This document shows, one piece after another, positions 6,938 through 60,229 of a stretch of 64,000 bases of DNA. A program made the position numbers and the translations under genes. Every line of letters begins with the position of its first letter. The stretch's first letter is position 1. Location: assembly GCA_949296425.1 (NCBI GenBank), contig CASFPN010000040.1, positions 1 through 64,000 of the forward strand, written 5' to 3'. Under the pieces are notes generated by a model. The model saw only the letters and a list, made by a program, of their open reading frames with translations, had not been told where the DNA came from and did no database searches. Origin of the DNA: an uncultured bacterium (lineage in GTDB: Bacteria > Cyanobacteriota > Vampirovibrionia > Gastranaerophilales > Gastranaerophilaceae).

Positions 6938-6941
6938 AATT

Positions 6942-40078: not shown

Positions 40079-42145
40079 TTAGTTTTTTAAATAAGTAATT
40101 TCAAATCTTCTGCATGGTCTGAATTTTTGAATTCTTGTTGTAAACTGCAACGCATCCCTGCGTTCACAGTTCTGATAAATATCTAAGCCTCTATCCAAAA
40201 GAACCTTCCAACCTGTATCGGTTGAAATGCTTCTTGCGTGGATTGTTGCATCGTATCCGAATGTAAATTCAATTCCCATTTGGAAACAAGACTCTCTTAC
40301 AGTTTCAAGATTTTCTGTTTGAACATCTATATTATATTCATCATTTCCTGTTAACAAACTTACTTCAATAACATCTGTTTCAGGTTTTGATTTTTCGATG
40401 ACTTCCATCAATTCCATCAAATTTATGATTTGAAAATAATTGCGAATATACGGATCTATAATTTCAATGCGTTTTGCACCTTTGAATATTGGAGCAAAGA
40501 GCTTTTCATAAGAAACACCAATTTGTCCTTCTTCAAACGTAAAGTGTTTTTCTTTAAACTCTTCTGTTTTTTGTTCTTCTTTTTGTTGAGCCTCCTCTTT
40601 TGTCTCTTCAGCTTTAACCAACAATTTTTCAAATTCATTTTCGTTTGTATCATTTTCAAGAGTGTTGGAACTTCCGTCGTAAAGGCTTGCATAATGCAAC
40701 TGTTCAAGCACTTTCACTTCCACTTTTTCACCGGATTTTTTTGTATACGAAAAATCAACCGGCGGCAGAGTTGAGTCAATTCTTAAAATCTGATCCTTGA
40801 CTCTTTTGCGACCTTCCATCGCAAATTTCAATAATTCTTCAATCTCATCCGGTGTTGCTTTCTTATCAGGATATATAATTTTCATTAAGCCGGAGAATGT
40901 TTTTCTAATACCGTCTTGGTCTCTTGTAGAGATATCTTTTGACATTTCAAAATATTTCTTGTAATCACTTGAGTAATCGAAGTTTCTCATTGTTTTTAAA
41001 ACTTCGGCATAATAATCAACAACGAAACCATAACCATTTGTAAATAACTCATTTCTAATAACATCGACTTCCCAACCCGGAATATAGAAATGGAGTCTAT
41101 CTAAAAATGCTGAGTCTAAATATTGAAGCGGCAATTCTTCAAACAGGTTTGAATGTTTTAACATATAAGGCACGTTGTGTTTAGTGTTACCGATAAATGT
41201 CATTGATGCTTCAGCACTTAGGGTTTCAACACCTCTTGAGAAAGATTTGTTTGCCATATAACCTTTCATAATATCAACAAGTGCTTTATCTGCTTTTTTG
41301 GAACTTCCTGCAAATTCATCAAATGCAATATTATCCCAATATCCAACTAGTCCGATGTCGTGCTTTTTAGAATTATTTACAAATAATTTTGCAGCAGAAA
41401 CCTCACCACCTGAAATCAATGTCCCATGAGGCGAGAACTCTGTATAAATATGAGATTTACCTGTTCCTTTAGGACCCAATTCAACCAAGTTGTAATTGCG
41501 TTCACAGAATGGAATTAAACGAACTAACTGCAAGAATTTATTTCTGCGACTCAACATTTCAGGATTAAAACCTATTGATTGAAGTATTAAATCAATCCAT
41601 TCATCTGTTGTAAACTCTTTTCTTTTTGATAAATAATCTTCATAATCAAACTGTGCCAACTGAATTGGCTTGATTGAATTTAAAATCCAAGGTACGGCTT
41701 TTACATCTTCGCAGTATTGATATTCAATATCAGCCAAGCACCAAACTCCTGAAACCAGAAGGCGAGGATATTTTTTGTTTACTGTTGCCGAATCAATTAA
41801 AACTTTGCTGATTCCAAGATTTGCAAATGTTGCTCTGTAACAATCATTTTTTTCATCTAATTCGGCATAAACCTTATCAATTATACGAAATTGTCCTTTT
41901 TCTTTAATATTTGATTTTACAAGTTCGGATTCGTTTCTGTGAACATAGTGTTTTGCAAGAATTTCTTTTACAGATTCAATTCCTGATTTAATTACGTCTT
42001 CATCACTTGAAGCACAGTATTGCCCCAGTAAATATTCTAAGACGTATGAAGGAACAATCGCATTCCCCTTAACTTCTTTTACTAAGTCTTTTCTAACAAC
42101 ACAACCTTCAAAGGTTTCCGTAATTTTTTTATCTAAATTATTCAT
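40079..42145 (-). CDS. brxL: BREX protein BrxL (Lon-like, MCM-like AAA+ ATPase)
   Basis: 688 aa, usual BrxL length. Walker A ELGPKGTGKSHIYTEFSPHGTLISGG (224-231 for the P-loop), Walker B-type DNIAFDEFAGSSKK, sensor-1 TFIGNTKHNVPYML, arginine segment DSAFLDRLHFYIPGWE. The C-terminal ~170 residues are the Lon-protease-like domain of the family, here with a long Glu/Lys-rich linker (EKLLVKAEETKEEAQQ...). In characterised type I systems BrxL forms a DNA-binding ring needed for phage defence. Last gene of the BREX operon, 12 bp after pglZ. Confidence 0.92.
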   Translation of the reverse strand: MNNLDKKITETFEGCVVRKDLVKEVKGNAIVPSYVLEYLLGQYCASSDEDVIKSGIESVKEILAKHYVHRNESELVKSNIKEKGQFRIIDKVYAELDEKNDCYRATFANLGISKVLIDSATVNKKYPRLLVSGVWCLADIEYQYCEDVKAVPWILNSIKPIQLAQFDYEDYLSKRKEFTTDEWIDLILQSIGFNPEMLSRRNKFLQLVRLIPFCERNYNLVELGPKGTGKSHIYTEFSPHGTLISGGEVSAAKLFVNNSKKHDIGLVGYWDNIAFDEFAGSSKKADKALVDIMKGYMANKSFSRGVETLSAEASMTFIGNTKHNVPYMLKHSNLFEELPLQYLDSAFLDRLHFYIPGWEVDVIRNELFTNGYGFVVDYYAEVLKTMRNFDYSSDYKKYFEMSKDISTRDQDGIRKTFSGLMKIIYPDKKATPDEIEELLKFAMEGRKRVKDQILRIDSTLPPVDFSYTKKSGEKVEVKVLEQLHYASLYDGSSNTLENDTNENEFEKLLVKAEETKEEAQQKEEQKTEEFKEKHFTFEEGQIGVSYEKLFAPIFKGAKRIEIIDPYIRNYFQIINLMELMEVIEKSKPETDVIEVSLLTGNDEYNIDVQTENLETVRESCFQMGIEFTFGYDATIHARSISTDTGWKVLLDRGLDIYQNCERRDALQFTTRIQKFRPCRRFEITYLKN

Positions 42146-42157
42146 TTTTCACCTGCC

Positions 42158-44668: not shown

Positions 44669-44679
44669 TATCTATTTAC

Positions 44680-45180
44680 CTATAAAGTAATTAAATCCAT
44701 CAAAAATTTGTTCACAAGAACAAAAGTTCGTTTTTGTTCATTTATTATTGCAATATCTTTTTCCCCATGAAAAAGATTATTTCTTAGTCTAAAAATAATA
44801 TATAAAACAGCTTTTATTTTATTTTGATGAGAGCATTGAGTATCTCTAAATTTTTCTATTACAAAATCCCTGTAAGTGTGTTCATGTTCTTTCCATAACA
44901 GATTCTCTGTATCATATATATTATCAAATACTTTATACCTATCTTTGAAATAATCAAAAATTACATCCACTTCTAAATTATTAATTGAAATATGACTTTC
45001 AACGAAATTATTGACCTTAGAAATTTTGGCAAAATTATCCATACATCTATCTTCAAAAAGATTCCAAATCATAGCAAAATTAAATATAAATGAACGTTTT
45101 TGCTTAAAGTTTGTAACTGTTTCATTACAATTTAGAGTTTCTATTAATTTTTCTATTGTTTGTCTTTCGGAATGTGGCAT
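44680..45180 (-). CDS. HEPN-like protein inserted in the BREX operon
   Basis: 166 aa, mostly helical. The C-terminal helix RLRNNLFHGEKD contains R133-N-N-L-F-H138, matching the R-x4-6-H motif of HEPN ribonucleases and related proteins. No companion minimal nucleotidyltransferase is present. It lies between pglX and pglZ, 11 bp before the pglZ start and 21 bp after the membrane protein gene, in the same direction, so it is expressed with BREX. It may be an RNA-targeting toxin module attached to the system, for instance an abortive back-up, but the motif alone does not prove nuclease activity. Confidence 0.65.
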   Translation of the reverse strand: MPHSERQTIEKLIETLNCNETVTNFKQKRSFIFNFAMIWNLFEDRCMDNFAKISKVNNFVESHISINNLEVDVIFDYFKDRYKVFDNIYDTENLLWKEHEHTYRDFVIEKFRDTQCSHQNKIKAVLYIIFRLRNNLFHGEKDIAIINEQKRTFVLVNKFLMDLITL

Positions 45181-45201
45181 GTTATCCTTTCAGAATAGGT
45201 A

Positions 45202-45960
45202 TTACTTTTTTCTATTATCTAATTTGAACTCTTCTTCTATAATATTTCTAAGTTTTTTTATAGAATCATTCATTTGATTAACATCATATTCTATATCTTT
45301 TTCATTTTTATAATATGCTAACAAATCATCAACGCAATAAATTACTCTTTTCTCATTTATGTCAGTAATAAAATCTTTTTTATATTTATCATCGCCTCTT
45401 TGTAAATACCATCGATGTTCTGCAATTTGTCTTAAAGTGAAACAATATATATTAATAAATTCTTCTAGTATTGAATCAAAGCCTTTCATTCTTTCAGCAA
45501 ATCTAGTATTTATATTGCATAAATGCGTATATATTTTTCTGAACTTTCTAATATTATATTCACAAGCAAAAAAAGCATCATTTGTTGTTTTTTTTATAAT
45601 GCAATCTTCATCTTTTTCAAAGTAATAAGTTAGTTCATCAATAGTTTTTAGCTCTTCGCTTAAAACATCTAACGTATCAATATAGTGTTTATACCTAAAT
45701 TCATAGATTCTAGCATCTTTATCAAATTCAGCTGTCTTATAAACAGCATACCAAGTTATACCACCAGTTATAATCGCTCCAAGTAATGTTGTTAAAGGAT
45801 TCCAGTCGAATGAACTAAATGGAGACGGAATAAACCATAATGAAAAAAACGGAAATACTAGCCATAGTATAAGCTTAATCCCAACGATAATTAATGCTAT
45901 CGCAAAGGTAATTTTCACTATTAGCCAAATCCAATCAAGTATCTTTTTAGTTTTTTCCAT
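45202..45960 (-). CDS. Membrane protein with cytosolic helical domain inserted in the BREX operon
   Basis: 252 aa. Two membrane segments (residues ~10-45 as a long hydrophobic stretch, then ~55-75: LTTLLGAIITGGITWYAVY), followed by a ~170-residue charged, helical, partly coiled-coil domain. Its ATG follows the pglX stop with no gap. No enzymatic motif is seen. It resembles small phage-defence membrane proteins in layout only. Pairing with the HEPN-like gene suggests a two-gene accessory module with a membrane sensor or effector; that is inference. Confidence 0.65.
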   Translation of the reverse strand: MEKTKKILDWIWLIVKITFAIALIIVGIKLILWLVFPFFSLWFIPSPFSSFDWNPLTTLLGAIITGGITWYAVYKTAEFDKDARIYEFRYKHYIDTLDVLSEELKTIDELTYYFEKDEDCIIKKTTNDAFFACEYNIRKFRKIYTHLCNINTRFAERMKGFDSILEEFINIYCFTLRQIAEHRWYLQRGDDKYKKDFITDINEKRVIYCVDDLLAYYKNEKDIEYDVNQMNDSIKKLRNIIEEEFKLDNRKK

Positions 45961-48900
45961 TTACCCCTTCTTTCCTACAATATCTTTTTCTGCTTCGAGT
46001 AGTCCTTGGAATTTTGCATAGTTGACTTTTACACCGTCATCAAGGTCTAGTTCTATCTGCTCATCAGCTAAATCCTTAATCTTTCTATCAAATTCAAGGC
46101 ATTCTGTTTGGTATTTTGAATATAGTGATGTTAATTTAACATTTCCTTCGTTTTCTGCTCTTTGTATTGCATTATCCAATTTGTTTTGGAACTCGTGCAA
46201 ATAATCTTTTCTTATTCTTGATAATGTTGTTTTATCATACCTGTGCAGGTATATTAGAGCGTTGAAAGCTTTTTCTTTTCCACTTGTAAACATCCAATAA
46301 ATAGGACGTTTTTTGTAGATTTGCAAATGGTCTTTGTAGAAATCTTTTAAGAAATATGTTCTAATCCTATCTTCTGCACTCTCAGAACCTTTGCGACCTA
46401 AAACATCTGCTATATATTGCATATTCTCATTGAAATATAATTCGCCAAATGCTTTTTTCAAGAACCTTTTGAACTCTTCTATAATATCATCATCAAACCA
46501 AGTATCAGAAAGAATCGGTAAAATACCATCTTCATCAACTTCTAAATCCTGATATCTGCTCTTATCAAACTCTCCACCAGCATATATTAAACCTTTTTCA
46601 TCAAGAGAATATCTGCCGAACATACAGCCAATAGCATAAGATAGAAGTGATTTTATATCCCTTAATTCATCTGCTAAAGCGACTGTAATATCTTTATTAT
46701 CGACCTCTGGAGTCATTTCATCTTGAAGCCCATAAATTTCAATAAACAATTTGTTCAACTCTTCTTCATTGGCTTTTAGCTTGTTGAACTGTTCTTGTTT
46801 ATATTCTTTCCATTTGTTGAAACAATCTTGAACTTTATCTCCTGCTGTAATAGGTTCAACTTTATGAATATTTTTGTAGTCAACAAGACCTTTATTTCTA
46901 TTAGAGAATCTCAACAATGGATGTTGTTCAAAATCCCAAGATGTTTCAAAACTATCCCAATCGTCTTTTGATATTTGGATATTTTTTTCAACATATGAAT
47001 TTATTTTATCAATTATTAAATCTTTGTTTGTATAATAAAACGGTATTTTTTGAATATCTCCAACTGTAAGGTTTAAAGTAGGATTTAACAATTTTATTAT
47101 TTTATTAGAAATTTTATTATTTAATAAAGCCAAAATATATTTTTTTAATTTTGGTTTTACGACAATAACTGGTGCTGCTGAAGTATATTCAGAATCTTTG
47201 ATTTTTATTCTAAAAGAAGAATTGCTTGAAGTAATTAATCCCCAAGTAATTCCTTCACAATCTATAAACTTTTCGTTTCTTAACCCTCCATGCGATGCAT
47301 ATTCTAATGTTGCTTCCTTTGACCAATTTATAACATATTCTAAATTGCCATACCATTTTCTATAATTTCCACCTTTATTGCAGCATTTCCAATATGAGGC
47401 TTGCTTGCTTACTTCGTGCCATAATCTTAGGTATTTCTCGTCATTATGAGTTTTGGTTCTTCCGGCTGAAACAATAAAGTCTTTTAATAAATTATTTGTG
47501 CTAAACAAATTTTGAAATTTAGAAGATACCCAATATGCAATAGGACAACTAGGAATACTCATTAAATTGCTAGTTGTATTTTCATAATACCACCCACAAT
47601 CTTTATTTTTTTTAGCTTCCAATGCTTTGATTGGTTGATTTGTGGGACCAGGAAAATCTGATAGTTTAATATAAGATGCAGTTTGTTCTTTATTTTTGCG
47701 ATTTTTAATCAATGAAAAGGTACAAATAGGAACAGTTGCACCTTCAAATCCAGAATATTCCAATTGAATTAAAGTTGTAATATTGGTATTTCGCAACATG
47801 TTTATTCTTAATTCCTTATAAGTAGGAATAAACATCCATACGAAAGGAGTCATGAAGCCTAAATGTCCTTTTGTTGCAGTTTTGTTTATAGCATATTCCA
47901 TGAAAGTTGAAAATAAATCAGATTTTACATCTTTATATTCTTTTTGTATGAATTCTGCTAATCTTGGTTCCATATACTTATTGCCCATATATGGAGGGTT
48001 TGTAATTACACACTCGTATTGTTGTTGCATAATACTAGCTTGTTGAATAAGAATTGGAAGTTTTGTTTTTAAATCTTGAATTACATCTGTGTATAATAAT
48101 CCCATATTCAAGGACTGAATATCTATCAAACGTTGTTCCCAGAAATCAAAATCAAAGTCTTTAACTTTAATAATTGAGCCATATATTTTAGCATCTTTGA
48201 AGGTTTCAACAAGGTTCTTTATCTGTTGTTGAGCCAATAATTGATTTTCAACACCATTCATTAAGGCTTCTTTTACTCTTTCGTCAATCCAGTTAGTTTC
48301 TTGAATTGACACAACATTTATAGATGTTATCTTATTTAATATATTTTTATCGTCTTGATATGCTCTCATCATAACTGCAAATTGAGCTAATTGAACAGCT
48401 CGATTACATATATCAAGACCAAATAAATTATTTTTTAATATTAGGCTTGGAATATCGCTCTCAATATAGCCTGATTCCTTATACATCAAGTACAATAGAC
48501 TATAAGCGTAAACCAAAATGTGTCCAGAACCACAAGCAGGGTCGAAAACTTTTATTTGTTCAGGTAAAATACCTTTCATTATATGTGATTCTAGTTCTTT
48601 TTTATCTTCATCCGTAAGATGTCTTGGTTCAAGATAAAATTCCATTGAATCTTTTAATTTTGAAGTTGAGTGAGCTTCTTGCCATAATCTACCCAAAGAA
48701 TTTTGAGTCATATATTTTACAATCCATTTGGGCGTAAATAATTGTGTAGCATAAGGAATTTCATTTGCTTTATATCTTTTCTTTGCTTGAATTACCCTGT
48801 CTTTTTCTGCTTGATTATAATACTGATAAAGCCAGCCGATAATTTCTACAACTTGCCAGTTGGATTTATCAAGAGATAGCATTTCTTTTATTACAGAATC

Positions 48901-49470
48901 AGCACTATTCATCCCTTGAGGGAATAATAGTTCTGTATAGTCTTGGATTTGTTCAAACAAGAATGGAAGTTTTTTGTTCATTACATTACATTGATGAATT
49001 AGTAATGTCTTAAAAATTGTATCCTGATTATTATTTTGAACAGCCGATATAACAGTTTGTTTTTCTTCATCATTCAATTGTGATGAAACAGATACTGCAA
49101 ATTGGTTAAGGTTATCTATATTGGAAATAATATTAAAATTATTTTCGCTATAGCCATTAACCTCCATATAATATAGAGCAATGAATCTGTTGAACCAAGT
49201 ATATGCAACTTCATCAATCAAGTTTTCATAACCTTTTGACTTAATTTCTCTTTGTAAGGTCTCAACTTGTTTTTTGCTGAAGAACTCTCCATTTATTTTC
49301 ACTTGTCTGTCATCTTCAAATTCATAATTGACAGCTCTATTATCTTCATAAAATCCCATCAGTTTTGCTTGAAGCTCAACTCTTTCTTTAAGTTTTCTTC
49401 TTGCTTTTATAGCAAAGTCTTTTAGTGCTGATTTATCTAATGTTATTTCGTTTTCTAATAGTTCTGTCAT
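45961..49470 (-). CDS. pglX: BREX-1 adenine-specific DNA methyltransferase PglX
   Basis: 1169 aa from the ATG at 49470 (AAAGGAAG upstream). SAM-binding motif VFDPACGSGHILVYAY at about residues 309-324 and catalytic motif NPPYMG at about 491-496 identify a gamma-type N6-adenine methyltransferase. The C-terminal half contains target-recognition and specificity regions and helical tail (QNKLDNAIQRAENEGNVKL). In type I BREX this enzyme marks host DNA at a non-palindromic motif and is needed for both protection and defence. The frame is intact along its whole length, with no recombinase-type inverted repeats noticed inside it. Confidence 0.93.
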   Translation of the reverse strand: MTELLENEITLDKSALKDFAIKARRKLKERVELQAKLMGFYEDNRAVNYEFEDDRQVKINGEFFSKKQVETLQREIKSKGYENLIDEVAYTWFNRFIALYYMEVNGYSENNFNIISNIDNLNQFAVSVSSQLNDEEKQTVISAVQNNNQDTIFKTLLIHQCNVMNKKLPFLFEQIQDYTELLFPQGMNSADSVIKEMLSLDKSNWQVVEIIGWLYQYYNQAEKDRVIQAKKRYKANEIPYATQLFTPKWIVKYMTQNSLGRLWQEAHSTSKLKDSMEFYLEPRHLTDEDKKELESHIMKGILPEQIKVFDPACGSGHILVYAYSLLYLMYKESGYIESDIPSLILKNNLFGLDICNRAVQLAQFAVMMRAYQDDKNILNKITSINVVSIQETNWIDERVKEALMNGVENQLLAQQQIKNLVETFKDAKIYGSIIKVKDFDFDFWEQRLIDIQSLNMGLLYTDVIQDLKTKLPILIQQASIMQQQYECVITNPPYMGNKYMEPRLAEFIQKEYKDVKSDLFSTFMEYAINKTATKGHLGFMTPFVWMFIPTYKELRINMLRNTNITTLIQLEYSGFEGATVPICTFSLIKNRKNKEQTASYIKLSDFPGPTNQPIKALEAKKNKDCGWYYENTTSNLMSIPSCPIAYWVSSKFQNLFSTNNLLKDFIVSAGRTKTHNDEKYLRLWHEVSKQASYWKCCNKGGNYRKWYGNLEYVINWSKEATLEYASHGGLRNEKFIDCEGITWGLITSSNSSFRIKIKDSEYTSAAPVIVVKPKLKKYILALLNNKISNKIIKLLNPTLNLTVGDIQKIPFYYTNKDLIIDKINSYVEKNIQISKDDWDSFETSWDFEQHPLLRFSNRNKGLVDYKNIHKVEPITAGDKVQDCFNKWKEYKQEQFNKLKANEEELNKLFIEIYGLQDEMTPEVDNKDITVALADELRDIKSLLSYAIGCMFGRYSLDEKGLIYAGGEFDKSRYQDLEVDEDGILPILSDTWFDDDIIEEFKRFLKKAFGELYFNENMQYIADVLGRKGSESAEDRIRTYFLKDFYKDHLQIYKKRPIYWMFTSGKEKAFNALIYLHRYDKTTLSRIRKDYLHEFQNKLDNAIQRAENEGNVKLTSLYSKYQTECLEFDRKIKDLADEQIELDLDDGVKVNYAKFQGLLEAEKDIVGKKG

Positions 49471-49558
49471 CAATACTTCCTTTATCGTTTGAAAAGTTCC
49501 AATATTTTAGGGATTAGGTTGGTTTTATAATGGTTACTCCTATTTACACCATTTACCC

Positions 49559-52500
49559 CTAGCCTTGAAGTTTAATACGTTTATTGTTCCTGATTCTGTT
49601 TTTCAACTCTTCTGATAGTTTATTGATATAGTTATCAACATCTTCTTCAGTCTCAAGAATTTGCATAGCCTGAACAACATTTGTAGGATTTACGAATACT
49701 AATTCTTTCTGAATCATTGGTTCAGAGTCTGGATGTTCTTCTGTACCTGTTTGTTGGTGTAATTCTAAATTCTTTTTCGCAATGCTATCTTCTGAAATTT
49801 GTTTCAAAATTTTTTCATAATATAATTTTGCTTTTTCTTCAATAGCCTTTAACACTCCAAAATCAGTTGCTCTTTCATACAAATCAGTAACATTAATCTT
49901 GAATAAGTTGCTATATCTTTCACATTCAAGCCCCTGTTTGGATGCTTCTTCTGCTAAATAATAAGCTAAATCACTTATAACTTCTCCTAATGCCTGTTTA
50001 TAATCTTCTAATACATTATTAACAATAGAAGTTATATCCGAATTTAAGACAGGAAGGTCTTTAATCATAGAATATGGTTCAGGAGAATCTATTATCGATT
50101 CAAGTTTAGAAATTAGTTCATTTAATTTAGCAACCTCTTCTGATTCAAAAGTTGTTAAATAAACTTCATTTCTTTTTACTCTGTCATATATTTTCAATGA
50201 TTCATCAAAAATACCAACTTGAGTATTAAAGAATGATTTTAGGAGTTTATATTCTTGTTTCCAAGTTAATAAATTATCCTTTTGCTTTATCAATAAATCA
50301 AATAATCCGTTTACATCTGGCTCATTCTTAAGCTCTTTTAATGTAGAAAGACCAAGTTCAATAACAGTCTTTTTAGGATATTTTGGGTTATTATGTCTTC
50401 CATTAAGCTCTTGTAAATCTCCAATCATATTTTGAAGATTTTCCCTTATTGAATTTGCAAGTTTTTCTCCATCATCTACAAAGTCTTGTTTTTCAAATAG
50501 TTCTTGTGCTATTGCTATTACTTGCTGGATTTTTGCACTATCTATTTTTTCTTTCAATTTGATTACAGTGCTTTGGATTTCTCTGTCATTTGTCAAATAT
50601 TTTACTGTATTATAATCCTGATAATTGCATTGAACACCATTATAGAGAATAGAAATATCTCCCTTTACAGCTAAATCTGCTACAACACCTGCAATATCAT
50701 TTATAGACCAACCATAAGGTTTTCTTGTGTATTGTTGTTTTAATCCCTGCATTGTAACAGTACAACTCATCGAGTTATTTAGTTGAATAAATGCTAAAAC
50801 ATCATCAAGAGCTTTTTTGTTTCTTTCATCCAATTTACCTTGAGGAGCAATGAGTTTTGCATGGATTTCTTTTTCATCCCTAACTCTTTCTTGGATAAAA
50901 TGAAGATTTGTATATGTATTTTCTACAATTTGTTTCAAAGCATTTTCAATCTTTGCAGCAGCACTTGTTGCACTAACTTCCATAATCTGACCGTTTGTGT
51001 AGAAAGTAGATTCAAGAATAGCTTGTTCTAATAAAGTTTTTACCCTTTTCTTGCGTTCTATTAATTCAGCACCTCTGTTTTTTAATATCATATCCTGCAT
51101 TTCAGACTGTTTTACACTGCTTTTTTGCTTGATATACTTGTCTGTTTTTAAGATAGTTTCAAGTTCTTGTAGGTAACCGTTTTCATTCAATTTGATAAAT
51201 AATGTATTTCCTGCAAGGAACTTCATTTTTAGCTCAGATTCGCTGAATTTATAATCAGAGTTCATAGAAGTAATAAATTTAACTTCTATATCTTCTGCCT
51301 GGCTTCCTCGTACTACATCATCAACTTTTCTTACAAAATAATAAGACTGCCCTTGAGGATATGGAGTTATTGACTTTTTAGTATAAATCTCTTCATATAT
51401 ATTTCTATAGACTTCATTTAACACATCGCTAGAATCAATCTGAGTGTTTTTTATACCTCTTGTCACATCTTGCTCTTCGTTTGTTAAGAATGAATATTCT
51501 TCTCCGTTTTGTTGTATTAGTGTAGCTTGTTTTAATCTTGTTAAAGCTCCTTCTATTTTGGATTTTAGTGCATTTTTACTTTCATTAATATTTGATATGA
51601 TTAATGTTGCAATATTTTCTACATCACAAGGAACTTCTTTAATGTATTTAATCAAGAATAAAACCTTTAATACTTCAATATCAAAATCTTCTATATCTGG
51701 ATTCCCCTCTTGGGCTTGTGCAATTATTCTTACTATATCTGTATCAATAAAAGTCTGGATAGTAGAATAAAACACATTAAATGGAACTAATTCCGTAATC
51801 TCTTTATCACCGTATTCTTTTAATGCCGTATGGAAAGCATTTAGCATTGAACGTTCTCCCGATGCCAGGTGCACTCCGGCATGAGAGAAATTCCTTAATT
51901 CTGTAAATACGCTTTGCAGCAGTTTAAACTGATATGGTACAAACGGATAACAATCAACGAAATCTCCCGAGTTTTCATACATTTTCATGCCGGAAGTTTG
52001 GCTGGAAAAAGTTATTAGATTAGCCAATATCTTTTCTTGTTCATTGTAGTAATCAGAAAGAAGAGTTTTAGCATCCTCCCTTTTTTCTAACAGTCTTCGC
52101 TTAATAACTTCATCAGTATTTGAACCCGATAAACTTAATTTTGTATCAAATCTGCCTTGAATTTTGGAGAAATCTTGATCTCTAAAGCGTTCTTTGGTAA
52201 TAGAATCTATTGCCTCTTGAGAAGTTACCATTACCCAGGCTCTTCCATTACACATCGTACCCAAGTTTTCAACAACTGTCTGTAAGCTAAGCATAAGGTT
52301 TGTATTATCGCTTATAAATTGACCAATCTCATCGACTAAGAAAATAAGTCGATTCTTACTACCTTTACTTTCAAGATATTCTTTTATTAGCTTTGCAAAC
52401 CCTTCTGGTGTAATCCCTGAATCTTCAACAACATCTTTAAATAAGTCTTGTGTACTTTGTTCTGTTGTCCCTGTAACTTGAACATAAGCCTTTATAAAGA

Positions 52501-53122
52501 AGTCTTTAAAGAATCCAATTGCATTAGATGCTTCTTCCCAAGATACACCGCTTTCTGAGGTTATAATTTGTTTAAATTCTTCATATTTTCCATTTTTATC
52601 AAGATATCTTTCAATATCTGCAAGTTTAGGATAGTTTGCAGAGTAACCCTGAGATTCATTAAAGACCTTTAAAAAGACTTCAACAATGCCATCTTTTCTT
52701 TGTTTTGTATCTTTTGAGCTTTTAGAATCAATGTTGAACAAAATAGTTTCTGTAGGAACGGATGTAGCTAATTTCATATCTGCATAAGTCCAATCATCTA
52801 AATTAGATTTCCCTTCAAAGAATTCTATTGTTTTTTTACCTTTTACTTCTTTATTCGCAAGGAGATATGACAATATCTTTAAGAAGTGAGATTTACCTGA
52901 ACCAAAGAATCCGGAAATCCATACTCCAACTTTATCTGTTCTTTCTTCAAATGAGTTACGATAATTGCTGTAAAATGTGCTAAAGTGCTTGGAAAGCTCT
53001 TTTGTTACAACAAATTCGTCCAGTTCCTGATAAATAATAGCCTCGTCATCAACTTGTTCTACTTTAACAACGCCGTTAATGTTTCTATTGATATCTTTTT
53101 CAAATAATTCTCTTAGCTTCAT
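49559..53122 (-). CDS. brxC: BREX ATPase BrxC
   Basis: 1187 aa from the ATG at 53122, preceded by AAAGGTG and lying 10 bp after the brxB stop; the frame is open upstream within brxB. P-loop GFFGSGKSHFLKIL (71-78), Walker B LIFLVDEIGQFI, and a sensor-like VMVTSQEAID. The remaining ~800 residues are helical with coiled-coil segments, as in the BrxC/PglY family. It is the large ATPase of the BREX complex. Its exact action on DNA is not established. PglX follows after 88 bp. Confidence 0.93.
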   Translation of the reverse strand: MKLRELFEKDINRNINGVVKVEQVDDEAIIYQELDEFVVTKELSKHFSTFYSNYRNSFEERTDKVGVWISGFFGSGKSHFLKILSYLLANKEVKGKKTIEFFEGKSNLDDWTYADMKLATSVPTETILFNIDSKSSKDTKQRKDGIVEVFLKVFNESQGYSANYPKLADIERYLDKNGKYEEFKQIITSESGVSWEEASNAIGFFKDFFIKAYVQVTGTTEQSTQDLFKDVVEDSGITPEGFAKLIKEYLESKGSKNRLIFLVDEIGQFISDNTNLMLSLQTVVENLGTMCNGRAWVMVTSQEAIDSITKERFRDQDFSKIQGRFDTKLSLSGSNTDEVIKRRLLEKREDAKTLLSDYYNEQEKILANLITFSSQTSGMKMYENSGDFVDCYPFVPYQFKLLQSVFTELRNFSHAGVHLASGERSMLNAFHTALKEYGDKEITELVPFNVFYSTIQTFIDTDIVRIIAQAQEGNPDIEDFDIEVLKVLFLIKYIKEVPCDVENIATLIISNINESKNALKSKIEGALTRLKQATLIQQNGEEYSFLTNEEQDVTRGIKNTQIDSSDVLNEVYRNIYEEIYTKKSITPYPQGQSYYFVRKVDDVVRGSQAEDIEVKFITSMNSDYKFSESELKMKFLAGNTLFIKLNENGYLQELETILKTDKYIKQKSSVKQSEMQDMILKNRGAELIERKKRVKTLLEQAILESTFYTNGQIMEVSATSAAAKIENALKQIVENTYTNLHFIQERVRDEKEIHAKLIAPQGKLDERNKKALDDVLAFIQLNNSMSCTVTMQGLKQQYTRKPYGWSINDIAGVVADLAVKGDISILYNGVQCNYQDYNTVKYLTNDREIQSTVIKLKEKIDSAKIQQVIAIAQELFEKQDFVDDGEKLANSIRENLQNMIGDLQELNGRHNNPKYPKKTVIELGLSTLKELKNEPDVNGLFDLLIKQKDNLLTWKQEYKLLKSFFNTQVGIFDESLKIYDRVKRNEVYLTTFESEEVAKLNELISKLESIIDSPEPYSMIKDLPVLNSDITSIVNNVLEDYKQALGEVISDLAYYLAEEASKQGLECERYSNLFKINVTDLYERATDFGVLKAIEEKAKLYYEKILKQISEDSIAKKNLELHQQTGTEEHPDSEPMIQKELVFVNPTNVVQAMQILETEEDVDNYINKLSEELKNRIRNNKRIKLQG

Positions 53123-53132
53123 AACTACACCT

Positions 53133-53732
53133 TTACTCATTTGCAACGAGCCTGAATGCTCTGTAATAATTGTCATCTTTTAAGCCTTCAAAGTTCGAAC
53201 CTTTAAAAAGCCTTAATTCTTTTTGATCGTATGTTCCCGGATAGAACATAATAACCGGTATTTTGTCCAAAACCGCTTGAAGGTTGTTTAATACGTTGTG
53301 AGATCTCACCAGCGGATATACTTTTCCAACGCCGGATAAAATTACGAGATTGTGCTCTCCAAGCTCGTGTTTTATCATATTGATAAATTCTTCTATATTA
53401 ATTACCCCTCTGAGAGTATTAATAAGACTTTCTGTTCCTTGTCTTTCTTCCGTTTCGATAGCCAAATCAAGATATGTTTTGTTCCCGGCAGTCTTATTTG
53501 TCAGGATTTTTAACAATATTTCAAATAAATCAAATTCTATAGGTTTAATCTTTGAATTTGAATATGAATAGCTGTTGATTAAGTCTTTTATGTATTGCCT
53601 TATTATCAGTTCATCCAACGGCTCATAATCAAAAATATGAAAATTTAACTCTCCACCCAGCGATTGTTGGTTGAAAAAAGAATCCTGTTCTATAATTTCT
53701 TTAATCTTATCCAGTCTTGCCCTAAGTTTCAT
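53133..53732 (-). CDS. brxB: BREX protein BrxB (DUF1788)
   Basis: 199 aa. Matches the DUF1788 family by length and by segments such as FHIFDYEPLDELIIRQYIKDLI, LVILSGVGKVYPLVRSHNVLNNLQAVLDKIPVIMFYPGTYDQKELRLF. The molecular function is unknown, though it is required in some type I systems. It starts 3 bp after the brxA stop and ends 10 bp before brxC. Confidence 0.92.
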   Translation of the reverse strand: MKLRARLDKIKEIIEQDSFFNQQSLGGELNFHIFDYEPLDELIIRQYIKDLINSYSYSNSKIKPIEFDLFEILLKILTNKTAGNKTYLDLAIETEERQGTESLINTLRGVINIEEFINMIKHELGEHNLVILSGVGKVYPLVRSHNVLNNLQAVLDKIPVIMFYPGTYDQKELRLFKGSNFEGLKDDNYYRAFRLVANE

Positions 53733-53735
53733 TAT

Positions 53736-54338
53736 CTATCCTAACATTGCTTTTGCGTATCTTTTATCGCCGATTTCTTCCAGATGACCTGTAATCTGAT
53801 ATATGCCGAGCGGGATTGTTAATTCCGCGTTATCTCTATCGGAATTAATGTATCCGGCCCCGCTTAACACTTCAAAATACGCTAATCGAAGTCTTTTTAA
53901 CGTCGTTTCTTTGAAATTGGCTACAGTTTCACTCTGTTCCGCTTTGACAGAAAAATAATTTGAAATATCTGACTTTGTCAGCTCCATTTGTCTTGAATAG
54001 ATTTTGTCTACTAGAACTTCTTCCATAAATTCAAGGAATAATCTGTCATATTTTAAAATTGCATAAAAATTAATTAGTCTGCCGATTTCATTAGATTCTG
54101 TTAAAACCATATCTATCAAGAAATCGTCCAAATAATTCGCTCTTTCCCAAACAGCTCCGATATGTTTATTGATAGCCTTAAAAGAACGATATTCAAATAA
54201 GTTTTCGTTAATTATCTTATCTGCTGCATCTTTTTTATTTAGACCATGCTTAATCAGATTACATACAACTTTAAATTCGTTGTATAAGAATTGATTTCCT
54301 GTTAATCTTGCACTATATATCGCTTTTACCGTTTCCAT
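53736..54338 (-). CDS. brxA: BREX protein BrxA (DUF1819)
   Basis: 200 aa from the ATG at 54338, the usual BrxA length. The frame is open to 54383 from a TTG, but that extension runs through the inverted repeat and is probably untranslated leader. Family features: YSARLTGNQFLYNEFKVVCNLIKHGLNKKDAADKIINENLFEYRS, and the C-terminal GAGYINSDRDNAELTIP. BrxA homologues are small helical DNA-binding proteins. First gene of the BREX operon, 18 bp from the inner inverted-repeat arm, so its expression would be directly set by the orientation of the segment upstream. Confidence 0.9.
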   Translation of the reverse strand: METVKAIYSARLTGNQFLYNEFKVVCNLIKHGLNKKDAADKIINENLFEYRSFKAINKHIGAVWERANYLDDFLIDMVLTESNEIGRLINFYAILKYDRLFLEFMEEVLVDKIYSRQMELTKSDISNYFSVKAEQSETVANFKETTLKRLRLAYFEVLSGAGYINSDRDNAELTIPLGIYQITGHLEEIGDKRYAKAMLG

Positions 54339-54356
54339 TTTCCAGTTACCCTTACG

Positions 54357-54379
54357 CAACACAATGTTATTATGTTGCC
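54357..54379. repeat. Inverted-repeat arm next to brxA (recombination site)
   Basis: 23 bp, perfectly complementary to 54529-54551. The arm itself has internal dyad symmetry: half-sites CAACACAAT and CAACATAAT (8 of 9 matching) in opposite orientation about a 3-bp centre (here GTT), as expected of a tyrosine-recombinase core site. It lies in the predicted brxA leader. Confidence 0.85.
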
Positions 54380-54387
54380 ACAACTAA

Positions 54388-54396
54388 ATCATACCA
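54388..54396 (-). promoter_or_regulatory. Extended -10 promoter facing brxA, inside the predicted invertible segment
   Basis: On the minus strand TGG-TATGAT (54396 to 54388) forms an extended -10 element; no TTGACA-like -35 lies at 16-18 bp. Transcription should start near 54381, just before the inverted-repeat arm, giving a leader of about 43 nt to the brxA ATG. In the flipped state the same promoter would face the end of the recombinase gene instead. Confidence 0.55.
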
Positions 54397-54528
54397 CAAA
54401 CATTACTGATTTTACTATATATTACACTTCCTTCATTAAAGGTTTTATAGCCACTGTTTCGCTATTTTTATTATTTTAAGTGTAAATTTTATTTATTTTT
54501 ACTTATGACTGTTGGTTTTCAAGAAAAA

Positions 54529-54551
54529 GGCAACATAATAACATTGTGTTG
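54529..54551. repeat. Inverted-repeat arm next to the recombinase gene (recombination site)
   Basis: Perfect 23-bp inverted copy of 54357-54379; starts GGCAACATAATAACATTGTG. It ends 6 bp before the recombinase stop codon. The two arms enclose 149 bp (54380-54528) with no gene. Confidence 0.85.
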
Positions 54552-54557
54552 TCTTTT

Positions 54558-55097
54558 TTATAGATAAAAATTATTGTAACTTTCGTCAATTACATCCTGT
54601 TCTAAGCCGATATACCTCAACGTTATCGCAGAAGAAGAATGATTCAAAATCTTTTGTAAAAGTGGTAAATTATCAAACTTTTTATAATGATGATAGCCAA
54701 AAGTTTTTCTTAAGGTATGAGTTCCGATATTAATATCAAGTTTAGCTTTTTTCGCTGCTCGATTTAATAATTTGTATGCTTGTACCCTGTCGAGTCTTTT
54801 CCCTTTTTGAGTTAAAAATAAAGGTCTTTCTAATTCTTTATCAACAACAAATTTTCCTATTTCACGTTGTAAGTTTTTGTTTAGGGGAAACTTTTTATGC
54901 TTTCGAGTTTTCTTTTCGTGAATTTCTATAAATTCTTTGTCCTTAACATCTTTAACGTTTAATGCAAGAATATCTGAAATTCTTAAACCACTATTAATTC
55001 CAAGATTAAATAATAACAAGTTTCTTTTGTTTGATGACAAAACTTTTTTAAACTTTGCGATGTCTTTTTTCTTTTTGATTGGCTCTACAATATTCAC
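54558..55097 (-). CDS. Tyrosine recombinase (small integrase), predicted invertase of the BREX promoter
   Basis: 179 aa from the GTG at 55097, which has AGGAGG 6 nt upstream; the frame is open to 55196 but without a comparable site. Catalytic residues: Arg39 (SGLRISDIL), Lys in the KTRKHKKF beta-hairpin, His127 and Arg130 (GTHTLRKTFGYH), His153 (LNHSSS, the usual GH/GW position) and Tyr162 (LRYIG). The separate core-binding domain is minimal. Such short forms occur as stand-alone recombinases in Firmicutes-type elements. It is co-directional with and directly upstream of the BREX operon and flanks a perfect inverted repeat, so promoter inversion is the likely job; integration of the island is the alternative. 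Confidence 0.88.
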   Translation of the reverse strand: MNIVEPIKKKKDIAKFKKVLSSNKRNLLLFNLGINSGLRISDILALNVKDVKDKEFIEIHEKKTRKHKKFPLNKNLQREIGKFVVDKELERPLFLTQKGKRLDRVQAYKLLNRAAKKAKLDINIGTHTLRKTFGYHHYKKFDNLPLLQKILNHSSSAITLRYIGLEQDVIDESYNNFYL

Positions 55098-55319
55098 TCC
55101 ATTCCTCCTTCCTTTTGCAGTTACAAACAAGTGCAATTTTAATAATAATCTGCTAATAATCTGCGTTTTCATAAGTTTATCTTCTGTCTTCGACACACAT
55201 TACCCCTCAATACAACTATTTTCAAGTCTTTAATATTGAGGACTTATAATTTAATTAAACCCTATTCATATTGCTGAATAAAATTTTGTTTTATCATTAT
55301 TAATATAAGAGGTGACAAT

Positions 55320-55492
55320 ATGAAAAAATTTTAGTAATTTTATTTTCTTTGTTTTTATTCACAAGCACTTGCTTTGTGGCAACAACTTCTTATGATAAAT
55401 ACTGACAAAAGACAGGTTCGTTTAAAAAAGATTCTTCAGATCGAATTACTGAATATGATAAATACGGAAGAAAAGTTGGAAGTTATAAATGA
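55320..55492 (+). pseudogene. Broken small exported protein gene
   Basis: ATG at 55320 with AGGTG upstream is followed by a stop after four codons. Adding one A in the A6 run at 55323-55328 opens KKILVILFSLFLFTSTCFVA, a signal peptide. Then a TGA interrupts before QKTGSFKKDSSDRITEYDKYGRKVGSYK, ending at 55492. A one-base loss plus an internal stop indicate a dead gene for a short secreted protein with YDKYGRK-type units. The A run could in principle be a slippage switch, but the second stop argues for decay. Confidence 0.5.
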
Positions 55493-55558
55493 TTTAATTG
55501 ACAATCAGGTAAAAATAATATATTATTAGGTTATATTAGGTCTAATTAGGTATTTATT

Positions 55559-56614
55559 ATGCTAGAAAATCTTGATATCAAAATAAACAACCAAATGCTT
55601 ACTATCATCTCTGAAATAGACGAGTTTAAAGGTTCTTGGAAACTTTTAGGTCAAATGGCACCTGAAAAATTACAAGCACTGAAAAAAGTTGCTACGATTG
55701 AAAGTGTTGGCTCCTCAAATAGAATTGAAGGGAACAAACTTTCAGATAAACAAGTTGAAGAACTTTTATCCAGAATTAATAAACAATCTTTTGCAAACCG
55801 GGATGAAGAAGAAGTTGCGGGATATGCAAAACTTGCAGATACAATATTTGAAGATTGGGAAGTAATTCCTTTATCCGAAAATTATATCAAGCAACTACAT
55901 AAAATTTTATTAGAATATTCTTCTAAAGATGAGAAACATAAAGGTGAATACAAAAAGATTTCTAACGCTGTTGCGGCTTATGACAATAGTGGCAAAGAAC
56001 TTGGAGTTGTTTTTGAAACCGCAACTCCTTTTGAAACACCATTAAAAATGCAAGAACTTATCGAATGGACCAACAAAAATTTGGCTGATAGATTTTATCA
56101 TCCGTTGATTGTTATTGGAGTTTTTGTTGTTAATTTTCTTGCAATTCACCCGTTTCAAGATGGAAATGGCAGACTATCTCGTGCTTTGACTAATCTTTTG
56201 TTGTTAAAATCCGGTTATTTGTATATTCCTTATAGCTCTACAGAATCAATAGTTGAAGACAATAAAGAGGCTTATTATAGAGCATTAAGGCAAACGCAAA
56301 CTACTTTAAAAACAGGGTCAAATTACGAACCTTGGTTAATGTTTTTCTTAAAAACTCTGCAAAAACAAAAAATTAGATTGGAATATAAATTAGAACATAC
56401 TGAAACTAAAAAATTATCTAATCTTGATTTACCGGAAGTTTCTGCAAAAATCATGGAAGTTTTTGAGACAAAAGAACGTGCAACGATTTCTGAGTTGTCA
56501 GAATTAACCGGAATAAATATTAATACAATTAAAAAGCACCTTGCGAATCTTGTTGAAAATAAATATTTAATTAAGCATGGCAAAACTCGTGGGGCTTGGT
56601 ATACAAAAGCATAA
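55559..56614 (+). CDS. Fic-domain AMP transferase with N-terminal inhibitory motif and C-terminal winged helix
   Basis: 351 aa. Fic core motif HPFQDGNGR at 197-205 (catalytic His, nucleotide-binding Gly-Asn-Gly-Arg) inside a helical domain. SSNRIEGN at 52-59 matches the (S/T)xxxE(G/N) inhibitory helix of class II Fic proteins, whose Glu blocks productive ATP binding until released. The C-terminal ~75 residues form a winged helix (ERATISELSELTGININTIKKHLANLVENKYLIKHG), suggesting DNA binding and autoregulation. Likely adenylylates a target protein. It lies between the recombinase and the ABC-3C genes and ends 6 bp from the latter on the opposite strand. Confidence 0.9.
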   Translation: MLENLDIKINNQMLTIISEIDEFKGSWKLLGQMAPEKLQALKKVATIESVGSSNRIEGNKLSDKQVEELLSRINKQSFANRDEEEVAGYAKLADTIFEDWEVIPLSENYIKQLHKILLEYSSKDEKHKGEYKKISNAVAAYDNSGKELGVVFETATPFETPLKMQELIEWTNKNLADRFYHPLIVIGVFVVNFLAIHPFQDGNGRLSRALTNLLLLKSGYLYIPYSSTESIVEDNKEAYYRALRQTQTTLKTGSNYEPWLMFFLKTLQKQKIRLEYKLEHTETKKLSNLDLPEVSAKIMEVFETKERATISELSELTGININTIKKHLANLVENKYLIKHGKTRGAWYTKA

Positions 56615-56620: not shown

Positions 56621-58534
56621 TTAAGAGATCCATTCTTGTGGAATTAATGCTTCTCCGTTACTCCAATTAGCAACAATATGTTTATACTCTTCAGGAATAT
56701 CTCCCCAAACTAATTCGTCAGCATGGTCTGATACTATTATTTGCAACTTGCCATTAGCATCTTTAACTGCATCTTGAAAAGTTTTAAACATCTTTTTAAC
56801 TTGCTTAATATCTTTATCCTCAAATTTTTCATCTTCTTTTTTAAGAATTTTTTGAGGGAAATATACTTGACTAGGTTGGTCATACATTACAAAATTGAAT
56901 ATTGGAAGATTTTTTTCAATAAAATGGAAATGAAACCCTAAAATTACGCCTATATGAAAAGCTACCCAATTAGAACCACTACCGGTTTCCCATAAGTAAA
57001 AATCTTTATTTGAATATTCTTCTTTTTTGACTTTAATTGTCATATCATCTTTAATAAATTGCGAAATATAGTGAAATTCTTTTATATCTGGCAAGTATTT
57101 TTGTCCATATTTTATTATATTTTTAATGCAATTATTGTATTCAGCTTCGACATTGTCTATGCTTATTTCATCTATTTGTTTTTGAATATCTTTTATTTGA
57201 TTATTTGTATCTTCGTCTTTTGAATTAGCAAATTCTAATAAAATTTTTGATTTTATAATTATATCTTCATAGATCTTTTCTACAATATTTTTCTTTTCTC
57301 CAATTTTAGAAATTTCAACTTTTTCTTTTTTTAAATCTTCAATATTCATAGAAATATCATTTATTTCTTTATCAATATCTAAAAGTTTTTTAACATATAG
57401 TGCGATTTCAGGTTCAAGCCTTTCTTTTAAACTATTAGTCAAAGCATCTAAATTTGAACAAAGTTCTTCTAAATCACCTAAACAAGTTGTTTCATCTACA
57501 TTTTCTTCGCAAAAAGTGTGAATGAATTTTGCAATCTCCAAACGATTTGTCTTCGTTTTTAATCTTTCATTACGTTCTTTTAGCAATGCTATAAGTTCTT
57601 CTATGTGTTCTTTCTGAGATTGCAAAGTTATTAATCTGTTGTTTAATGGTTCTATTTCTTTATTAATATCATTTAATAAATCACTAATTGAATCTGCATT
57701 TTTTAAACTTGGAGATAAATCCCTTATAGTTTTTTCTGAAAGTATTTTTAAGATATTCTTATATTCCTTTGGATTTCTAATTTTATCAGAATATGTTTCA
57801 TCAAGTAAACCGTATTTAATAGCATTTGAAATAATTGATTCGCATTTTTCAAGTTGTATAGCTTTTGTTCTTTTTGTTTCTTCTTTTATTTTAAGTAATT
57901 TATTTAATTTATCTTTTAAATTATCTAGTTTAATTCTATTTTCAATATTTTCTAATGTTTCTGCACCAATCACAAGATTAAAGACTGGTAACATTAATCG
58001 TTTATACTGTGAAACATCCATTTTATATAGTAAACAGTTGGGATTAGCAACAATATATTGTGGTTGAAAGTTAAATGTAACTAAATCTCTAAAGCTTAAT
58101 CTTGAATCTCTGATTCCTAAAGAGTGAGCTGGCTCGTAAAAAGGAACACCCATAATTTTATTTAGTTCTAATTTAAAGTCTTTAATATCTTTTTCATCAC
58201 TCCTATCAACAAGAGACGGTATGTTTTCTATATTTTCTAATACTATAATTTTATTACTTGCTTCATCAAGATTTTCTCTTACTATTAGCACTTTTGTCTC
58301 ATCAATATTTAAGACAATTCCAAACCATGCAGAATAATCTCTAATATGACCCACCGGAATTTTATTTTGTTTACTTCCTAAACAATAATCTATTATAGGT
58401 ATAATTGCTGATTTACCTGTTTGTGATAACCCATAAATTATGTTAATTTTACCTTTTGCAAACGAAAGAATCTTTGGTTCTAAACTTGGATTTTTAGCCC
58501 ATATTACAATATTTTCTATTTGAATATTTTTCAT
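56621..58534 (-). CDS. ABC-3C system ATPase (DUF3732, SMC/RecN-like)
   Basis: 637 aa. Walker A IIYGLSQTGKSAIIPIIDYCLGS (35-42). A long central coiled-coil region (~200-470) as in SMC/Rad50-type ATPases. The C-terminal half-site has the signature-like GSGSNWVAFHIGVILGFHFHF, Walker B FNFVMYDQPSQVYFP, and an H-loop IIVSDHADEL. This combination is characteristic of DUF3732 ATPases in ABC-three-component systems. Its start overlaps the stop of the middle-component gene by one base. In these systems the ATPase is thought to sense invader DNA and license the effector; no mechanism has been shown here. Confidence 0.85.
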   Translation of the reverse strand: MKNIQIENIVIWAKNPSLEPKILSFAKGKINIIYGLSQTGKSAIIPIIDYCLGSKQNKIPVGHIRDYSAWFGIVLNIDETKVLIVRENLDEASNKIIVLENIENIPSLVDRSDEKDIKDFKLELNKIMGVPFYEPAHSLGIRDSRLSFRDLVTFNFQPQYIVANPNCLLYKMDVSQYKRLMLPVFNLVIGAETLENIENRIKLDNLKDKLNKLLKIKEETKRTKAIQLEKCESIISNAIKYGLLDETYSDKIRNPKEYKNILKILSEKTIRDLSPSLKNADSISDLLNDINKEIEPLNNRLITLQSQKEHIEELIALLKERNERLKTKTNRLEIAKFIHTFCEENVDETTCLGDLEELCSNLDALTNSLKERLEPEIALYVKKLLDIDKEINDISMNIEDLKKEKVEISKIGEKKNIVEKIYEDIIIKSKILLEFANSKDEDTNNQIKDIQKQIDEISIDNVEAEYNNCIKNIIKYGQKYLPDIKEFHYISQFIKDDMTIKVKKEEYSNKDFYLWETGSGSNWVAFHIGVILGFHFHFIEKNLPIFNFVMYDQPSQVYFPQKILKKEDEKFEDKDIKQVKKMFKTFQDAVKDANGKLQIIVSDHADELVWGDIPEEYKHIVANWSNGEALIPQEWIS

Positions 58535-59058
58535 TACAAGATTACCTCTAAGTTTTTTATAACTTTATTAATATCATCATCTTTTGCATAAATTTTTGCT
58601 AATATATTTGTAGCTTTTATCAAAACCATTAATTCTTTGTTTAATGGTTCATTGTATGGATTTATATCATTTGTTTGAACTGTTCCATTAGGATTAACAA
58701 TTATTAAATTTGCTTCTATAGCAAATATTATTGAAGATATAACAAATTCTCTAAATTTTAATATTACTCCATTTATAGTTCCAAGAGCGAAGTTGTCCTT
58801 TGATTTTCCTATATATCCTATTTTTTCATATAGTTTACTTATTTTTGTGATTTGATGAGATTTATTACTGTTGTCAAACCAAAATATAAGTTCCCTCACA
58901 TCTCTAACCATTATTAATGGTATAAAAATGAATATATCAAGTAAATTCGTATAAATATTGCGTTCTCGATAAAAAGTATTTGAAAATACATATATTAAAT
59001 ATGCTCCAAGTGCTGAATTTTGTATGTCATTACAGTATTTTTTATATATTGTTTTCAT
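58534..59058 (-). CDS. ABC-3C system middle component
   Basis: 174 aa from the ATG at 59058, preceded by AAGGA; the longer frame to 59082 would deepen the overlap with the upstream gene. Helical protein starting KTIYKKYCNDIQNSALGAYLIYVFSNTFY, with NIYTNLLDIFIFIPLIM and NGVILKFREFVISSIIFAIEANLI. It shows no enzyme motif. Size, position between the nuclease-like and ATPase genes, and tight overlaps (17 bp and 1 bp) fit the 'middle component' of ABC-3C systems, a proposed linker. Family subtype not determined. Confidence 0.75.
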   Translation of the reverse strand: MKTIYKKYCNDIQNSALGAYLIYVFSNTFYRERNIYTNLLDIFIFIPLIMVRDVRELIFWFDNSNKSHQITKISKLYEKIGYIGKSKDNFALGTINGVILKFREFVISSIIFAIEANLIIVNPNGTVQTNDINPYNEPLNKELMVLIKATNILAKIYAKDDDINKVIKNLEVIL

Positions 59059-60229
59059 AGAAGTCCTTAAATTTATCTTCATATTGATAATGCCAACCTA
59101 CAGAACAATAATGGTTTACAGGCTTATTGGCTAATGTATTATAAATGCCTCTTGCTACTCTTTTTTGAGAACCTCGAATCGTTAATCGTTTTGGTTTTAT
59201 ATTTTCACCTTCATTGCAACATCTATAATATAAATCTGCACCGTCATATTCTTGATTTTGTCTGCTTAAATAATTTCTATGTTCTTCCCATTCAGTTTTG
59301 GCATCATAATATATTTGATTAATATCTTGTTCATTTATATATCCATCAGTAGAACAATCTGTACATAAAATTTCCCAAGCAATATAATCTCTTATTGCAG
59401 TATCAACAGAATCATTCAAATTAACTTCTTCTAACTGCTTTACCATTAAAGAAGCCTTTAAATTCTCTATTTTTTGGGTTTCTATGCTGAAACTATCAAC
59501 TAAATCATATGCATTAAGCCTATCATATCTATCTTTATAAAAATCAAACTGCTGACGAGTTATTTCTATAACTTTTTCTGTTTTTAGTTTTGGATTTTCT
59601 AAATCAATACCAAAACAGCCTTTTATATATACATTGAAATTATTTATCAGTTTAAAAGTTTCTCCATATTTATTTGTAAGCATATCTATAAAATCCTCAG
59701 ATGATGATTTTATAGGTTGTTCAATATAAAAAGAATTTAGAATAAACTTTAATAATTCTTTATTTGTATTTAGTTTGTTAAAATATTGTTTTATTTCATT
59801 ATCATCATCTTTTTCTTTAAAATATTCTTCCTGCTTTTTCCAGATTTCATCAAAATTATCTTTATTTTTAATGCTTAAAAAATCATTTGCTAAATTGCCA
59901 ATTTCACATTTACCCCAAGAATATATTACAAATTTAATATTACTACAGATATTATCCTTATTTGTATTTTCTATTATGCATAACCAATTATATAGAGTAT
60001 TCCATAAGTCTTTCGAATAATCAGTCAAATTACAAGGTGATTTATATTTTACTTGTTCTAACTTTTTAATTCTTCCTTCATAATCAAATATGGAAATATC
60101 ATCTAAATTTTCAATTCTTACTTTTCCAATAGAATCATCTGACACGATATGATATAAGGCTCTTGGTGCTTCAACATAATAGCCTAAAAAGGAATCCAGT
60201 CTTTCATTTTTAAAAGAAGAATTGCTCAT
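59042..60229 (-). CDS. ABC-3C system effector: restriction-nuclease-like N-terminus plus ABC-3C C-terminal domain
   Basis: 395 aa. The first ~70 residues read FLGYYVEAPRALYHIV, then VRIENLDDISIFD and KLEQVKYK (Glu58-Gln-Val-Lys61). This E...D...ExK pattern is that of PD-(D/E)xK nucleases of the DUF4297/Cap4 kind. The central part is helical. The C-terminus, RVARGIYNTLANKPVNHYCSVGWHYQYEDKF, matches the conserved end of ABC-3C effector proteins. It likely cuts DNA when triggered by the ATPase. First gene of the three-gene minus-strand operon; its 5' side faces the phase-variable gene at 60431. Confidence 0.8.
   Translation of the reverse strand: MSNSSFKNERLDSFLGYYVEAPRALYHIVSDDSIGKVRIENLDDISIFDYEGRIKKLEQVKYKSPCNLTDYSKDLWNTLYNWLCIIENTNKDNICSNIKFVIYSWGKCEIGNLANDFLSIKNKDNFDEIWKKQEEYFKEKDDDNEIKQYFNKLNTNKELLKFILNSFYIEQPIKSSSEDFIDMLTNKYGETFKLINNFNVYIKGCFGIDLENPKLKTEKVIEITRQQFDFYKDRYDRLNAYDLVDSFSIETQKIENLKASLMVKQLEEVNLNDSVDTAIRDYIAWEILCTDCSTDGYINEQDINQIYYDAKTEWEEHRNYLSRQNQEYDGADLYYRCCNEGENIKPKRLTIRGSQKRVARGIYNTLANKPVNHYCSVGWHYQYEDKFKDFYENNI

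Follow-up and report, generated by a model that had tools for sequence, protein, structure and literature searches.

Inversion of promoters by tyrosine recombinases has long been known. In the closest described systems, fimS with FimB and FimE, hyxS, and MrpI, a small tyrosine recombinase gene lies beside a short repeat-bounded promoter segment that turns the next operon on or off. A locus with the same layout is present in a 64-kb stretch of DNA (hereafter the window) from a 2.0-Mb assembly (99.95% complete) of an uncultured gut bacterium related to cyanobacteria; its relatives carry the names Candidatus Gastranaerophilales / Melainabacteria in the records. Here a small tyrosine recombinase gene and a perfect inverted repeat precede brxA, the first gene of a type I bacteriophage exclusion (BREX) operon. 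The locus differs from the fimS-type switches in its payload, which is a phage-defence operon and not fimbriae, in having one recombinase gene, in its lineage and site sequence, and in that its inversion is predicted. Taken together, the sequence comparisons make it very probable that this is a FimB-like invertible promoter, conferring on/off phase variation on the whole BREX operon.

Invertible promoters with short inverted repeats (invertons) were reportedly found in gut bacteria by Jiang et al. in 2019, mostly before surface-glycan loci; the present locus differs in belonging to Gastranaerophilales, in the dedicated recombinase alongside and in the BREX operon downstream. Phase-variable BREX and phage growth limitation (Pgl) systems that operate through changes in pglX are also known, namely the Pgl system of Streptomyces and pglX recombination in some type I BREX. 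These alter the methyltransferase gene, whereas the window would turn the promoter of the whole operon, and no exact inverted repeat of at least 18 bp involving pglX was found in the window. In type I BREX with BrxR, a single promoter just upstream drives the operon as one transcript, and this WYL-domain repressor has been proposed to regulate it (PMC9122589); DNA inversion would instead give a heritable and stochastic control. Phase-variable restriction-modification by site-specific inversion of hsdS (PMC5903667) also inverts DNA at a defence system, but there coding segments are swapped and specificity changes, whereas the switch in the window would alter expression. Literature searches on BREX with promoter inversion, inverton, phase variation or pglX inversion returned no description of such control, and none was found on phase variation in Gastranaerophilales or Melainabacteria, which is weak evidence because most subscription papers lie outside the coverage of these searches. 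Within the accessible literature, the proposal of an initial annotation of this DNA that the locus is a possibly undescribed mode of BREX control stands: promoter inversion itself is known, and its use for a BREX operon was not found described.

The two arms of the repeat (arm 1, recombinase-proximal, positions 54529–54551; arm 2, brxA-proximal, positions 54357–54379) are 23 bp long, perfectly complementary and 149 bp apart. Whatever the gap allowed, no other exact inverted repeat in the window is as long, and their length is far above the maximum of 18 bp (mean 14.5, gaps of 20–1000 bp) reached by 60 random windows generated with a first-order Markov model. The enclosed segment (54380–54528) contains no gene. 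Arm 2 is placed at 18 bp from the ATG of brxA (54338) and arm 1 at 6 bp from the stop codon of the recombinase gene (54558). Each arm is itself a dyad in which two 9-bp half-sites flank a 3-bp spacer, CAACACAAT-GTT-ATTATGTTG. The repeat, its gene-free interior, both distances and the dyads had been described in the initial annotation, and all were reproduced when measured again. Perfect repeats around a short non-coding segment adjoining an operon are the arrangement seen in invertons. No further copy of the arm was found in the window with up to three mismatches (chance expectation 0.00), in the rest of the assembly by similarity search, or in IMG/VR. RNA folding predicts a hairpin for each arm; arm 1 together with its T-run is terminator-like, although weak in the window (-6.9 kcal/mol), and arm 2 would provide the brxA message with a hairpin at its 5' end.

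The recombinase gene (54558–55097, minus strand) encodes a protein of 179 residues that matches the Pfam family Phage_integrase (3.6e-23). It starts at a GTG codon with an AGGAGG ribosome-binding site; its longest open frame reaches 55196, and the homologues align from the GTG. Residues R39, K63, H127, R130, H153 and Y162 constitute the catalytic R-K-H-R-H-Y set and are invariant in an alignment of 12 homologues, and among solved structures the XerC-like, XerA and XerH proteins are closest in sequence. Comparison with a copy from the same genus (genome G002, 79% identical) gave proportions of nonsynonymous and synonymous differences (pN and pS) of 0.15 and 0.78, respectively, with synonymous sites saturated, which indicates that the gene is maintained by purifying selection.

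The G002 recombinase also adjoins a BREX operon, with BrxA, BrxB and BrxC 65–71% identical to those of the window (BrxC 65%), and its arms (21 bp exact, with an imperfect extension to 25) are likewise separated by 149 bp. Between the two genomes 3 and 4 of the 23 positions of the arms have changed, including the spacer (GTT in the window, TCT in G002), and the arms are complementary within each genome. Read from this comparison, the two arms have changed in step since the split of both lineages, which is what a recombinase needing identical spacers would enforce on sites 149 bp apart. The segment between the arms shows 60% identity as compared with 56 ± 2% for shuffles, with the exception of the stretch around a -10 box: 17 bp ahead of arm 2 lies TGCTATGAT in G002 and, at the identical distance, TGGTATGAT in the window.

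This extended -10 box, TGGTATGAT (54388–54396, minus strand), points at brxA as initially annotated, and its core is conserved in other BREX operons. The BREX operons of genomes G069, G080, G190, G041 and G044 (BrxC 97–98% identical to the window) lack such an inverted repeat and have ATGTTTGTAGTAAGATT before brxA, recognisably the same core as the in-segment ATGTTTGTGGTATGATT; the counterparts upstream of brxA are TTCATGGTATGATT in G081 and TTCATGGTAAGATT in G353. Since the same core precedes brxA in these repeat-free relatives, the brxA promoter is placed inside the segment, and by this comparison the conserved core sits within the invertible segment in both switched operons. An outward-facing promoter, a further trait of invertons, is in this way indicated by conservation and not by consensus match, because there is no good -35 box; a sigma-70 consensus scan requiring a -35 returned no promoter-like site at this position. 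DNA homology with the fixed operons starts only about 20 bp inside brxA, with 80% identity there and 97–99% across much of brxC. Therefore, judged by homology, the part of the operon next to the switch has had its own history.

A closer view of the mode of action comes from the relatives of the recombinase. Directly 3' of the gene, an inverted repeat recurs at about 50 of 130 distinct homologous loci, the BREX operon of G002 among them, with arms separated by 92–303 bp (typically 120–160), and in nearly all loci the downstream operon reads away from the switch. The payloads are mainly glycosyltransferases, epimerases and other surface-glycan genes, followed by surface proteins and methyltransferase systems. 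In the orthologous pair from G044 and G007 a 140-bp segment is 98% identical when reversed, whereas the flanks (93–94%) are unreversed. The G083/G047 orthologous pair (247-bp segment, 97% identical when reversed) and a pair of loci within G029 (117 bp, 95%) show the same, again with unreversed flanks, and in all three cases the breakpoints fall cleanly at the arms. In the G044/G007 and G083/G047 pairs one member has its extended -10 directed at the operon and its partner has it directed at the recombinase, and a TAGACA-17-TAAAAT element turns round likewise in the G029 pair (by eye). Both orientations are common among those loci of the family that have an extended -10 close to an arm. Comparing the orientation of the segment among relatives, as the initial annotation had proposed, thus gave a divided answer: three orthologous pairs of other family switches were observed in both orientations, as is typical of invertons, and neither BREX copy is flipped (n = 2).

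Two of these relatives control defence-type genes. Behind the switch of the G044/G007 pair is a split type IIG / Eco57I methyltransferase-type, restriction-modification-like system; at these loci (L212, G044:C1, and L213, G007:C1) the same operon of an Eco57I methylase and a T5orf172 protein is accompanied by the 140-bp switch in opposite orientation in two species. In the closest non-BREX sister, G392 (recombinase 69% identical over residues 89–212, arms ACAACATAATTTTATTGTGTT), genes for an HKD+Snf2 helicase and for a type IIG enzyme lie behind the switch, which is OFF, its extended -10 being turned to the recombinase. This locus (L209, G392:C161, positions 1–6460) carries BREX-like arms before the HKD/PLD+Snf2 helicase and the type IIG restriction-methyltransferase.

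Contigs ending within 300 bp of the recombinase do so on the 3' (switch) side in 12 cases and on the 5' side in 2 (hand count; p = 0.013). This skew fits mixed orientations breaking the assemblies; as repeats by themselves may also cause such breaks, the evidence is weak. One contig of G039 ends within an arm almost identical to that of the window, and one of G149 ends about 55 bp past such an arm (outside the count of 12). A partner for the G039 contig end was sought, and only one arm copy and no brxA were found in that genome. Behind the G149 recombinase, which matches that of G002 at the switch, BREX was sought and not found: the contig breaks off within the segment, and the bin contains no BREX. 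The locus L061 (97% identity over residues 25–58) has a truncated recombinase and lacks BREX; its positions 4281–6104 show 87–89% DNA identity to window positions 55021–56606, the recombinase ending after codon 58 and unrelated genes following. No recombinase-type repeat pair before BREX was found outside the family among further class-level loci. A related cluster of recombinases (about 63% identical; L080 at about 5180–5936, L188, L193 and others) has no site pair 3' of the gene and is located 0.6–0.9 kb before BREX in G069, G080 and G250. In this cluster a single conserved site, CAACATAATGAAGTTGTGTTG, lies 200–360 bp upstream, and several of its loci show a TAGATAATATATTAT repeat pair, 28–29 bp apart.

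On this basis, the FimB-like recombinase would recognise the dyad in each arm and pair both arms, and strand exchange in the arm spacers would invert the 149 bp between them. We infer that the window copy inverts, with the adjacent recombinase as the agent, and that BREX expression follows orientation. In the present (ON) orientation, the promoter at 54388–54396, the sole recognisable one for brxA, would fire into this gene and the whole BREX operon would be transcribed. At the same time, and with less support, arm 1 and its T-run might act as a terminator shielding brxA from recombinase transcription. In the OFF orientation the promoter would be turned to the 3' end of the recombinase gene, leaving brxA without a promoter, and the outward transcript would almost immediately meet a hairpin of 11 kcal/mol followed by a U-run, and stop. 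Inversion would also move the inner T-run off arm 1, so that read-through from the recombinase might leave a low level of BREX in the OFF state.

Several points weigh against an on/off switch of this kind. The -35 box of the promoter is weak, both BREX copies (window and G002) are ON with none seen OFF, transcription from the recombinase gene could sustain some BREX expression in the OFF state, and the switch is an optional part of BREX operons, since near-identical ones (BrxC 97–98%) manage without it. The shared ON orientation would also be expected of a locked or vestigial switch, derived from an active family, that no longer inverts and leaves BREX constitutive, and the decayed locus of G056 shows that such modules can degenerate. 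That version (L084, G056:C14, positions 6602–8755) retains a recombinase remnant (residues 168–210) and degenerate arms, and its BrxC homology stops at residue 190. In the window, however, the repeat is perfect, and a locked switch is unlikely because the enzyme is intact and conserved and the two arms have evolved together after divergence from G002.

A reading of the arms as att-type or resolution sites, belonging to a mobile element by which the BREX island arrived, with the recombinase acting as an integrase and not as an inverter, is very improbable. It is true that the defence island adjoins a recombinase of the integrase superfamily, that genes of transposition type (Mu-transposase C-terminal, TniB-like) are found on its far side (36506–38960), and that the 63% identical cluster has one similar site upstream instead of a pair. 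Nevertheless, the homologous pairs differ by an exact inversion with unchanged flanks, and two sites in inverted orientation at a distance of 149 bp yield inversion and not integration or excision. That the arms are merely a terminator and an mRNA hairpin, or the operator of a regulator, with incidental inverted pairing, is scarcely credible: each arm does fold into a hairpin, and arm 1 of G002 with its T-run is strongly terminator-like (-19.4 kcal/mol, z -7.0), but this leaves unexplained why identical arms stay complementary through divergence, their spacing beside the recombinase in about 50 loci, and the three inversions. An invertible promoter accounts for the repeat far beyond chance, the intact and conserved recombinase, the co-evolving arms and the inverted homologous segments.

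The operon under the predicted control contains the full type I gene set on the minus strand, and profile matches to all six genes bear out the earlier claim of an entire BREX operon next to the switch. brxA (53736–54338; Pfam BrxA, 3.5e-43) is followed by brxB (53133–53732; Pfam BrxB, 1.2e-37) and brxC (49559–53176; PADLOC BrxC-PglY, E = 0), whose true start is probably at about 53122, as profile matches start at residue 19. Next come the methyltransferase gene pglX (brxX; 45961–49473; PADLOC PglX, E = 0), two cargo genes for proteins of 252 (45202–45960) and 166 residues (44680–45180), for which no family was found, then pglZ (42158–44668; Pfam PglZ, 4.6e-44) and finally brxL (40079–42145; Pfam BrxL_ATPase, 3.7e-125, and BrxL_N, 5.9e-46). 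Compared with the loci L079–L083, the operon (window 40079–55196) is a mosaic: brxC and pglZ are 95–99% identical across genera, brxA about 84% and pglX 65–81%, which suggests that specificity and the 5' end of the operon have been exchanged often. The orf252/orf166 cargo is sometimes present and sometimes absent among these operons.

Downstream of brxL (36506–39886) lie a Mu-transposase C-terminal/rve protein, a TniB-like ATPase, a protein with a phage-integrase N-terminal domain and a helix-turn-helix protein, and the BREX island may travel with these transposition-type genes. On the other side, positions 55320–55500 hold the degenerate remains of a short gene of secreted type, rich in repeats (YDxYGxKTGSY); apparently intact genes with this repeat stand directly before brxA in L079–L083 and before the recombinase in L190. 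A Fic protein (55559–56614) follows beside a DUF3732 ATPase, an MC3 middle component and a 395-residue partner (56621–60229), which probably form an ABC-three-component (ABC-3C) defence system.

The recombinase family appears to form a large set of dedicated promoter switches among uncultured bacteria of one lineage, of which no description was found, and BREX regulation is itself little understood, with repressors or pglX changes known so far. BREX has no obvious nuclease and its whole operon can enter a naive host (PMC9122589); for these reasons its activation in cells with unmethylated DNA may be better tolerated than that of classical restriction. The OFF state might, as the initial annotation proposed, lower the cost and permit DNA uptake, and the outcome would be bet-hedging of phage defence. 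If the switch operates as proposed, clonal gut populations would contain BREX-on and BREX-off cells, with a bearing on how phages persist, on DNA uptake and on what defence costs, and the BREX state could be read straight from metagenomic reads. In the Gastranaerophilales more widely, it is likely that one family of recombinase-plus-promoter cassettes switches complete intracellular defence systems (BREX, HKD+Snf2/type IIG and restriction-modification-like) on and off in individual cells, in a heritable and reversible way. Immunity to phages would then itself be a bet-hedged, phase-variable trait alongside surface glycans.
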